Of a DNA stretch of 54,432 nt, positions 21,113-24,094 are shown one piece after another; within the stretch, counting starts at the first letter, position 1, and each line of letters opens with the position of its first letter. The stretch lies in the NCBI GenBank assembly GCA_017620025.1, contig JAFZRF010000001.1, positions 1 through 54,432 on the forward strand, written 5' to 3'. A program made the position numbers and the translations under genes. A model generated the notes under the pieces. The model did no database searches. It saw only the letters and a program-made list of their open reading frames with translations, and had not been told where the DNA came from. The DNA is from Ruminococcus sp. (GTDB taxonomy: Bacteria; Bacillota; Clostridia; Oscillospirales; Ruminococcaceae).

Positions 21113-21151
21113 TGCCTTCCGCATTTTTCACGTGCAGAAGGCAAAACTTTG
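21113..21151. terminator. Hairpin after luxS
   Basis: The inverted repeat CCTTCCGCAT...GTGCAGAAGG lies between the luxS stop and the M23 promoter and could end the luxS transcript. The stem is imperfect and there is no long T-run. Confidence 0.35.
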
Positions 21152-21174: not shown

Positions 21175-21651
21175 TTATTTTTGAGTTGTATGCCACCTGT
21201 AGTCGAGCATTTCGGGGGTATAGTCCTCAAGCACCTTCAGCAGAGGGAGAACATCCTTCCTTGCAGACTCAAGATCGTGCTCGAGGTAGTTGCCGCACTC
21301 GACCTCGGTGCAGCCGGGGATCTCGTCGTGATACTCAGATATGAAGCGGTAGGCGTCACGGACAAGTGCAATGGCCTGTTCCTGTGTCACGGTATCCCTT
21401 GTGATAAGGTAGAAGCCTGTGCGGCAGCCCATAGGACCAACGTAGATTATGCCGTCCTTTACAGCAGAGTTGCGGGCATAGGTCGCAAAAAGGTGCTCTA
21501 TCGTGTGGAGAGAGGGATTTGATACGTATACTCCTCCGTTGGGCTTCACCATGCGGACATCGTATGTCACTGCATCGCCGTCTATGCGGGATATGTACAT
21601 TCCTACCCCGAATTTTGTGTGGTCTACCTGAAAGCTTGCGATTTTTTCCAT
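21175..21651 (-). CDS. luxS: S-ribosylhomocysteine lyase LuxS (internal start)
   Basis: LuxS splits S-ribosylhomocysteine into homocysteine and DPD, the AI-2 precursor. From the ATG at 21649-21651 the product is 158 residues, the normal family length. Zinc ligands His49, His53 (HTIEH) and Cys119 (ECGNY), the base Glu52 and catalytic Cys76 (GPMGCRTGF) are all present. AGGAGGA lies 6 nt before this ATG, so LuxS can start on its own. Yet there is no stop codon between the upstream pseudouridine synthase and this ATG, and the frame is the same; see the fused frame entry. Which form dominates is unknown. Confidence 0.88.
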   Translation of the reverse strand: MEKIASFQVDHTKFGVGMYISRIDGDAVTYDVRMVKPNGGVYVSNPSLHTIEHLFATYARNSAVKDGIIYVGPMGCRTGFYLITRDTVTQEQAIALVRDAYRFISEYHDEIPGCTEVECGNYLEHDLESARKDVLPLLKVLEDYTPEMLDYRWHTTQK

Positions 21652-22515
21652 TGTGGTTCCTCCTGTTATATGGTCTTTTTCCGTCAGCCCTGCCATATCC
21701 TCCGGCAGGGGACAGACGAGTTTTATCTCTTCACCGGTCATCGGATCAGGGAAGGTCAGCTCGCCGCAGTGCAGGGCGTGGCGGGCTATGTCCTCCCGGC
21801 TGCCGCCGTAGAGGTCGTCTCCGGCAAGGGGATGTCCGATATAGGCGCAGTGTACCCTTATCTGATGCGTGCGCCCCGTTTCAAGCTCAAGACGGAGAAG
21901 AGAATACTTCCCGCAGCAGGCTGTCCTCCGGTAATGCGTCACTGAGGGCTTGCCGTCCTCACGCACGCAGCGCAGTATTATGCTCTCACGCTCACGGGCG
22001 ATCGGGGCATCTATGGTCCCGGATTCATCGGTCATGCCGTGAACAACAGCGTAGTATACCTTCCGGCAGTTCCCCTGCAGGCGGTTTGCGGCGTGAGCAT
22101 CCTTTGCAGCTATGCAGAGCCCCGAGGTATTCGCATCAAGGCGGCTGACCGGACGGAATGTAAGCCCGGGATAAAGATGTGCGAACCAGTTGCCGAGGGT
22201 GCCGCTGCGGTGCTTGTGGGAAGGATGTACCGGCACTCCCGGCGGCTTGTTGAATACCACAAGGCTCCCGTTCTCGTATACTACGGGGATGTTCAGTGAC
22301 GCATCCGGCTCGAGCGATTCATCGCCCGAATCATTCAGGATCACCACATCACCCTTTTTCACCCTGTCAACGGTGCGGACAGGCGCTCCGTTGCAGGTAA
22401 TGCCGCCATCCTGATGCTTCAGAGAGGCTACGAGCCTCCTTGACACACCGTTTTTCACCCTCAGCAGTTCTCCGACCGTCATATCTTCATCTGCCGTGAA
22501 CCTCAGCTCACCCAT
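21175..22515 (-). CDS. RluA-family pseudouridine synthase fused in frame to LuxS
   Basis: One 446-residue open frame joins two enzymes. Residues 1-75 form an S4-like RNA-binding domain. Residues 80-285 form the RluA catalytic domain with Asp127 in VSRLDANTSG and the later LETGRTHQIRVH motif. Residues 289-446 are a complete LuxS. The synthase part alone (288 residues) has normal RluD-like length, so the join looks like loss of a stop codon just before luxS. The junction codes for TEKDHITGGTTM, and the GG pair is the ribosome binding site of luxS read as codons. GGGAG precedes the start at 22515. It is 13 nt after the membrane protein gene, so both are one operon. Confidence 0.8.
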   Translation of the reverse strand: MGELRFTADEDMTVGELLRVKNGVSRRLVASLKHQDGGITCNGAPVRTVDRVKKGDVVILNDSGDESLEPDASLNIPVVYENGSLVVFNKPPGVPVHPSHKHRSGTLGNWFAHLYPGLTFRPVSRLDANTSGLCIAAKDAHAANRLQGNCRKVYYAVVHGMTDESGTIDAPIARERESIILRCVREDGKPSVTHYRRTACCGKYSLLRLELETGRTHQIRVHCAYIGHPLAGDDLYGGSREDIARHALHCGELTFPDPMTGEEIKLVCPLPEDMAGLTEKDHITGGTTMEKIASFQVDHTKFGVGMYISRIDGDAVTYDVRMVKPNGGVYVSNPSLHTIEHLFATYARNSAVKDGIIYVGPMGCRTGFYLITRDTVTQEQAIALVRDAYRFISEYHDEIPGCTEVECGNYLEHDLESARKDVLPLLKVLEDYTPEMLDYRWHTTQK

Positions 22516-22528
22516 GCCGCAACTCCCT

Positions 22529-23317
22529 TCATGCTGTTCTTCTGTATCCTGTTATCATCGATGCCCTTCGCTCCTCACGGTACTCATCCTCCCTGAGGAA
22601 TATCGAAATACTCAGAGCAGCAGCTGTGCCTGCCTCGGGCAGCGGGAAGAGAAAAACGGCAGGCAGGAGGTAACGAAAGGCAAGGAATACGAACACCCGC
22701 CTACGCCCCCTCATAAGCCTATGAGAGCGTATTATAAGCTTTATCGGCGATAAACCGCCGTCTGCGGCCATAAGGAACGGCACGGCCGCCATGCCTGTCT
22801 TCACCTTCAGCCACCACACGAAAAGTATCAGGGTAAGCACTGTACAGTGCAGCGCCCCGAAAAGCTCCCCTGTGCCGGCGCCGTCCCGCAATGCAAGATA
22901 CGCCGTCGAGCCCGATACTGCCGCAGGTATCAGTGCGAGAGCGCCTGTCAGCTTCACAAGAAAGGCTGCCACTGCGCTCCGGCGAAGAAAGCTGCCACGT
23001 GTGAGGAACTCCGTTACCGGCGTCAGCTGTTCCCTGCCCTCTGCATTCTCCCACAGTCTCTGAGCGGCAGCAAATCTCAGCGGAGCGCAGACCATGCAGC
23101 GCAGTGCGGCAAATACTGCCGCCGCAAGCATCGCCGTCTCCGAGGAGAAGAGCTCCGCCGGCTTTCCTCCGAGATAGAGCATCATGCAGTATACCGCTGT
23201 TTCAGCCGTCCGCAGAGTAACTGCCCCGCAGACAGGCAGAAGGCATATCAGCAGGAGCCTGCCGCGCTTTCCTTTGATAAGGCTGCGTGAATAGCGTATA
23301 AGTTCTCCGGTCTTCAT
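22529..23317 (-). CDS. Polytopic membrane protein, unknown function
   Basis: The protein is 262 residues from the ATG at 23315-23317, chosen for AGGAGGT upstream. Four to six hydrophobic stretches are visible (about 22-45, 65-85, 125-150, 165-190, 235-255), with basic loops between. Arg-rich patches such as RSHRLMRGRRR suggest cytoplasmic loops. I do not recognise a family; it may be related to DUF975-like integral membrane proteins. It lies between the phosphatase and the RluA-LuxS gene in the same direction. Confidence 0.7.
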   Translation of the reverse strand: MKTGELIRYSRSLIKGKRGRLLLICLLPVCGAVTLRTAETAVYCMMLYLGGKPAELFSSETAMLAAAVFAALRCMVCAPLRFAAAQRLWENAEGREQLTPVTEFLTRGSFLRRSAVAAFLVKLTGALALIPAAVSGSTAYLALRDGAGTGELFGALHCTVLTLILFVWWLKVKTGMAAVPFLMAADGGLSPIKLIIRSHRLMRGRRRVFVFLAFRYLLPAVFLFPLPEAGTAAALSISIFLREDEYREERRASMITGYRRTA

Positions 23318-23371
23318 AGCATACCTCCTAATGTACAGAGGTATTATGTGCAGAAGCGCCGGTATCATACA

Positions 23372-24016
23372 TTAATAGAGGTCGTCCTCTTCTCCGGCCA
23401 TGCGCTCATAGGGGCAGTAGCCGAGTATCTCGAAGGCCTGGGAAGTAAGCCACATCTGAGCCGATACCATTATATCAAAGCCCTCGCCTGCCCCGGCTGT
23501 CAGATATTTCGGATCGTACTTCGGCAGACCGAAGCCTGTGAGCAGATTCGATATGATTCCCGCATGGGTTATGACTGCCGCCCGGGTGATGCCCGTGTGC
23601 ATCATATCGTTGATTATGCCGTGTATCGCTGTGTAGCACCTTGCGGTCATCTCCTCAAGGCTCTCGCCTCCGGGCGGACGTGAATCCTTTCCGCCGCTGA
23701 GCCAGGCCTTGTAGTCCTCCCTCCCGAGAAGATCGTCAACGCTCTTGTTCTCGAACTGTCCGAGATCCGCCTCACGAAGCTCCGGCACTACAGCTGTCTC
23801 CGTGTACGGGTAAAGGATATCCGCAGTCTCGATGCATCTTTTCAGCGGAGAGGTATAGACCCGGTGTACCTTCGGGTAATCGAACTCATCCATCTTCGCT
23901 GCAAGCTCCGCAGCACCCTTGTCCGACAGAGGCATATCGGTAGAGCCGATATAGATACCCATTTCGTTTGCCACCGTCATGCCGTGGCGGATAAGACTTA
24001 TCCTGTATCCCTTCAT
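23372..24016 (-). CDS. Histidine phosphatase superfamily protein
   Basis: Phosphoglycerate-mutase-like phosphatase of 214 residues. LIRHGMTVANE (about 8-18) gives the catalytic RHG motif, TSPLKRC the second Arg, and VITHAGII the second catalytic His. The family includes alpha-ribazole phosphatase and other small phosphatases; the substrate cannot be read here. The ATG at 24014-24016 has AGGAG upstream, so a longer frame to 24046 is rejected. It may share control with the divergent XRE regulator. Confidence 0.88.
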   Translation of the reverse strand: MKGYRISLIRHGMTVANEMGIYIGSTDMPLSDKGAAELAAKMDEFDYPKVHRVYTSPLKRCIETADILYPYTETAVVPELREADLGQFENKSVDDLLGREDYKAWLSGGKDSRPPGGESLEEMTARCYTAIHGIINDMMHTGITRAAVITHAGIISNLLTGFGLPKYDPKYLTAGAGEGFDIMVSAQMWLTSQAFEILGYCPYERMAGEEDDLY

Positions 24017-24094
24017 ACTTGCTCCTTTCATGTACAAACTGTACAAAACGACCCTTTGTTTTTTTAACGTTTAGTATTTCCTACAAAAAACGAC

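Follow-up and report, generated by a model that had tools for sequence, protein, structure and literature searches.

Single genes with an internal in-frame start, such as infB, give rise to both a full and a short form of their product. Overlapping unidirectional gene pairs that are translationally coupled through termination-reinitiation represent a second well-known arrangement, according to excerpts of two reports (PMC10666635, PMC12548453), while LuxS is described in an excerpt of a further study as a dimer in which a Phe of one subunit, labelled Phe 7 in a figure legend, lies at the active site of the other (PMC2656534). No title listed in searches of an open-access library names a fusion of an RluA-type pseudouridine synthase with LuxS. 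In the window, i.e., the whole 54,432-nt stretch of DNA that was analysed, the open reading frame listing gives a single 446-codon frame on the minus strand (21175-22515) that runs from ATG to TAA without an internal stop, and in which a complete RluA-type pseudouridine synthase is followed by a complete LuxS. The features of this locus are as follows.

21175..22515, minus strand: merged RluA-LuxS open frame (ORF list; Pfam and NCBIfam matches)
21676..22515, minus strand: RluA-type pseudouridine synthase part, approximately residues 1-280, with Asp127 in RLDANTSG (Pfam, NCBIfam; best solved matches are RluD chains)
21652..21675, minus strand: linker codons past the RluA part, approximately residues 281-288, also containing the luxS ribosome binding site (alignment; 1-nt length difference and divergence from the sister genome G104)
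21658..21664, minus strand: AGGAGGA Shine-Dalgarno motif, 6 nt upstream of the LuxS ATG (sequence; SD-like motif in merged and unmerged relatives)
21175..21651, minus strand: LuxS part, which read from the internal ATG forms a free luxS frame of 158 codons and a stop (Pfam, NCBIfam; all 16 merged frames keep Met289)
21114..21142, minus strand: stem-loop followed by a T-rich stretch just 3' of luxS, with a 10-pair stem and a 9-base loop, a likely intrinsic terminator (fold; stretch largely conserved in the sister genome)
22529..23368, minus strand: upstream neighbour, a 279-residue membrane-like protein (hydrophobic sequence)
23372..24046, minus strand: gene of the histidine phosphatase superfamily, farther upstream in the run (ORF list, profile match)

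Both domains exceed their curated cut-offs. In Pfam, PseudoU_synth_2 (PF00849) matches residues 85-224 with an E-value of 7.5e-31 (107.9 bits against a cut-off of 26.8) and LuxS (PF02664) matches residues 291-424 with an E-value of 1.1e-45 (155.6 bits against 27); in NCBIfam, the RluA family model TIGR00005 reaches 202.4 bits against a cut-off of 192.7, and the S-ribosylhomocysteine lyase model NF002604 reaches 163 bits against 158. With its family profile over cut-off and a catalytic Asp in the RLD motif, the first part belongs to the RluA-type synthases, and the second belongs to LuxS by its profile together with HxxEH and both Cys motifs (HTIEH at 49-53, Cys76, and Cys119, numbered from Met289). 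The NCBIfam equivalog models for RluD, RluC, and TruC all scored below their own cut-offs for the RluA part, whose closest solved-structure matches are RluD chains. A preliminary description of this DNA had reported the uninterrupted two-domain frame, the catalytic residues of both enzymes, and an AGGAGGA motif 6 nt ahead of the in-frame LuxS ATG; each of these was recovered here, and the predicted pairing of the motif is stronger than that at control Met codons.

The merged frame lies in a run of genes on the minus strand. The stem-loop behind luxS was missed by the terminator scan, whose scanner limits loops to 8 bases whereas the loop here has 9, and a LysM/G5/M23 gene lies beyond it. The 279-residue upstream neighbour has no Pfam match at an E-value of 0.001. 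In the window, this membrane-like gene ends 13 nt ahead of rluA (22515-22529); in 105 of 117 fetched loci, it overlaps the beginning of rluA in another frame, by at least about 30 nt in 95 loci and often by about 100 nt, although these lengths are rough as rluA starts were placed by alignment. The relative frame of the two genes is one and the same in 110 of the 117 loci. A merger of the membrane-like gene with rluA was found in none of the 117 loci, which at face value suggests that mergers are no general feature of the run; the upstream junction is nevertheless an unfair null for the luxS junction, because its frame hardly varies.

Relatives show how variable the rluA-luxS junction is. The 446-residue query matched in all 125 genomes of the genus, which is probably Ruminococcus, and LuxS was found in 111 of them; a LuxS match was missing from 14, seven of which are 92-99% complete and carry a strong match to the RluA part, so luxS seems to be absent from some lineages. 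A total of 91 rluA-luxS pairs from 90 genomes (G107 contributes two) were classified, comprising 15 merged in frame, 22 overlapping out of frame, and 54 in which the rluA stop precedes the luxS start, with gaps of 0-20 nt in 39, 21-100 nt in 11, and longer in 4. Overlaps or gaps of 0-20 nt together make up 61 of the 91 pairs, and 15 more are merged; the two genes of such pairs lie on the same strand, with the stop of one only a few bases from the start of the other and the second ribosome binding site inside or beside the first gene. It had been proposed earlier to look for the same domain pair in related genomes, with separate genes in all relatives as the outcome that would speak against the fusion; the pair was indeed found in relatives, 15 of the 91 pairs being merged, and a uniformly separate state was not seen in the genus.

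The 91 pairs were counted without the copy of the window locus (L002), L043 (G028, broken rluA), and L048 (G037), in which rluA is cut by a contig end and stops before luxS. No locus was fetched for G015, G019, G067, G106, and G113; a further 24 loci contain no LuxS match within the fetched stretch, and five contain LuxS without an rluA match (L120-L122 and L001/L125, the last two being the second LuxS of the window genome). In L043, a frame change breaks the second half of rluA while the remainder is in frame with luxS across an open junction, which was left uncounted because the gene is broken upstream. A distant LuxS (approximately 47% identical) adjoins rluA on the opposite strand in L050 and L053 (G021 and G010). 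Open-frame length had also suggested mergers in G047, G087, and G208, but these were rejected, as the DNA shows stops between the genes. Among the matches listed in a family-wide search of 396 genomes, G323, from another genus, is merged in a 479-codon frame, and rluA and luxS are adjacent yet separate in G377 and G298. At L131 (G423, a member of the family outside the genus), two different LuxS genes come after rluA and share its strand. A wider contig scan returned mostly ordinary RluA genes; among the matches listed, 80 loci were kept, with LuxS in at least one (L152).

The internal luxS start is retained in all 16 merged frames examined. The junction of the window reads CATATAACAGGAGGAACCACAATGGAAAAA on the minus strand, i.e., AGGAGGA, 6 nt, and ATG. 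In an alignment of the 16 merged frames (15 of the genus plus G323), the ATG encoding Met289 is invariant, and no frame lacks the RLD motif, HxxEH, or either LuxS Cys motif. The predicted pairing of the 16S tail ahead of this ATG has a median of -7.9 kcal/mol (-10.3 in the window), compared with -3.0 kcal/mol at 143 further in-frame Met codons within these frames, a difference whose p of 2e-8 is overstated because the merged-frame rows are related. Pairing of -4.9 kcal/mol or better is found at 16 of 16 LuxS starts and 23% of control Met codons, and pairing of -7 kcal/mol or better at 13 of 16 and 6%, respectively; by these predicted energies, the Shine-Dalgarno motif is more than chance. It is weaker in three merged genomes (L031, L032, and L034; -4.9 kcal/mol, a value that 23% of control Met codons also attain). 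Unmerged pairs (76; median -8.0) do not differ from merged ones (15; median -7.9) in motif strength (p 0.19); taken alone, the 22 overlapping pairs show a nominally stronger median than merged pairs, at -10.3. The linker between the RluA part and the LuxS Met varies from 5 to 10 residues among merged frames, mostly with unlike sequences, and the motif is read in differing codon phases (GGA-GGA, CAG-GAG-GAA, and AAG-GAG), so that bases rather than residues have been kept. Distant merged lineages agree at only 27-50% of fourfold-degenerate sites, yet retain motif and ATG; the closest merged pairs agree at 68-82% of such sites, and retention among close relatives could partly be inertia. A conserved in-frame start (ATG in 16 of 16) preceded by a Shine-Dalgarno motif, the signature expected of a frame with two products, is thus present.

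The history of the merged state was traced on a bootstrapped tree of the 91 concatenated RluA and LuxS protein pairs. Merged and separate states interleave on it, and at least nine changes are required (bootstrap range 9-9), at least six of them forced by well-supported branches. Shuffled merged labels gave 14.1 changes on average, with none of 500 shuffles as low as nine; the merged label is clustered relative to this expectation and is therefore partly inherited. Five genomes (L009, L011, L013, L016, and L017) form an all-merged clade, and selection could act on the merged state in some clades. The window groups with G104 at 100/100 support, and the two are 86% identical in DNA over 1630 columns. 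G104 is unmerged, its rluA overlapping luxS by 13 nt in another frame, and the linkers of the two differ by one base in length with several substitutions around it; the next nearest relatives are three unmerged loci of G107 and G076. Because the sister G104 is unmerged, the window's own merger is probably young. The preliminary description had envisaged a fusion frozen soon after stop-codon loss, of which the recent date agrees with the unmerged sister; the change was not a simple stop loss between spaced genes, because in G104, from which the window differs by frame, rluA and luxS share 13 nt.

Within the genus, merging does not stand out from other forms of close packing. Among tight pairs, 15 of 27 in-frame cases are merged and 22 of 49 out-of-frame cases overlap (Fisher p 0.47, kinship being ignored), and merging therefore looks no rarer than overlap. 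On these counts of related sequences, which carry the argument for a sliding stop, there is no visible bias for or against the shared frame once the rluA stop passes the luxS start, and the pattern looks like a tolerated by-product of gene packing. The long-merged five-genome clade, set beside the unmerged upstream junction, leaves room for a use of the merged form.

Both halves of the merged frame appear to be maintained. The dN/dS ratio is approximately 0.03-0.19 for both halves in seven chosen merged pairs, in some of which dS is saturated, and is 0.08 (RluA half) and 0.03 (LuxS half) between the window and unmerged G104. Of the 15 merged genomes within the genus, 14 yielded no luxS besides the merged frame, nine of these 14 being listed at 95% completeness or more; LuxS activity in these genomes would therefore have to come from the merged frame, as fusion, free enzyme, or both, provided that the drafts miss no copy. 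A decaying or redundant copy was rejected for most merged genomes, given the lack of another luxS in 14 of 15 and the low dN/dS. Two LuxS among merged genomes occur only in the genome of the window, a draft in 70 contigs that is 75.9% complete and contains five PseudoU_synth_2 genes in all; its second LuxS is separate, on another contig, and 61% identical to the merged one. From its sequence, this second gene (L125:465-974, minus strand; G000 contig C57) lies few bases behind an aminotransferase-like frame.

The explanation that we consider probable is a tight operon pair whose shared frame is sometimes left open, yielding a readthrough RluA-LuxS protein in addition to free LuxS. In the genus, rluA and luxS would form a tightly packed, probably translationally linked pair, with the luxS ribosome binding site inside the last rluA codons or within a few bases beyond them. 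Small indels and point changes would slide the rluA stop around the luxS start, producing short out-of-frame overlaps where the frames differ and two genes read as one where the frame is the same and no stop precedes the ATG. Ribosomes on rluA would then run on to make an RluA-LuxS chain of approximately 49 kDa, while others would start at the retained internal site and make normal LuxS of approximately 17 kDa. The conservation of ribosome binding site and ATG suggests that both products are probably made, which lends support to the two products, fused enzyme and free LuxS, proposed in the preliminary description. We infer that translational coupling operates and that cells tolerate the merged chain without needing it. 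The companion proposal that AI-2 and methyl-cycle chemistry are tied to RNA modification is not supported, as the merged state comes and goes between relatives, the linkers are mostly unlike, and the ribosome binding site and ATG of a separate gene are kept.

It is unlikely, by contrast, that the merged protein is itself selected as a bifunctional enzyme that couples RNA modification to the output of LuxS, the internal start then giving a minor or second regulated form. Such a role would agree with the clustering of the merged label on the tree, with both catalytic motif sets in all 16 merged frames, and with the five-genome clade, which is still merged even though fourfold agreement across its two halves has fallen to 43-50% and a single base change could turn linker codons such as AAG or GAG into a stop. 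Elsewhere on the tree, however, merged and unmerged genomes are close neighbours, as in the case of the window and G104, the linkers of 5-10 residues are mostly unlike, and the RBS-like motif and ATG are conserved at the base level. Moreover, the seventh residue of the LuxS part is a Phe; if it is taken to be equivalent to the Phe 7 shown in the excerpt of PMC2656534, the RluA part would be attached only six residues ahead of a presumed dimer-interface residue.

An assembly error, with a 1-nt indel bringing two overlapping out-of-frame genes into a single frame, is a rather improbable account of the window's merger. The incomplete draft, the one-base difference in linker length from sister G104, and a genome collection holding one genome per species, hence no second genome for comparison, would all fit it, but several other linker bases also differ from the sister, no homopolymer in that stretch exceeds five A, and the merged state recurs in separate assemblies of 14 other genomes of the genus and of G323. 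This recurrence led to the rejection of assembly artefact as a general explanation. There is also a slim chance that, where the merged frame is the sole luxS, free LuxS and RluA-LuxS form mixed dimers, such that the ratio of starts would set LuxS activity and the RluA half would bring LuxS to the ribosome or rRNA. That the merged protein is the sole product, with the internal site a silent relic of a formerly separate gene, is highly improbable, for although the merged frame has no termination at the site, so that termination-reinitiation coupling would be lost there, the ATG persists in 16 of 16 frames with a motif no different in strength from that of unmerged genes taken together.

The occurrence of one gene pair as separate, overlapping, and merged within a single genus provides a natural record of the path between operon neighbours and fusion proteins. 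It also calls for caution with the rule that domain fusion implies a functional link, which can fail, as unrelated enzymes may come to share a frame through tight packing. In merged strains with a single luxS, the function of LuxS with a large N-terminal partner is directly testable.

Compared with known systems, the preferred reading of an occasionally open operon pair combines traits of several. Like RluA/RluD synthases (TIGR00005, PF00849), the first part is a complete synthase with its catalytic Asp, but it carries LuxS at its C-terminus in merged genomes; like other members of the LuxS family (PF02664, NF002604), the second part is complete in its metal-ligand and catalytic motifs, but its predicted product may bear an N-terminal RluA domain. 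The merged frame resembles infB-type genes in being one open frame with two predicted starts and a C-terminal short form, and differs from them in that the short form is a complete separate enzyme, encoded by an independent gene in most classified relatives, and in that the merged or separate state flips within one genus. The pair resembles coupled overlapping genes in that rluA and luxS lie on the same strand with stop and start few bases apart (22 of 91 overlap and 39 have gaps of 0-20 nt), whereas, unlike the coupled pairs described in the excerpts of PMC10666635 and PMC12548453, rluA and luxS can share one stop-free frame with no termination before the second start.
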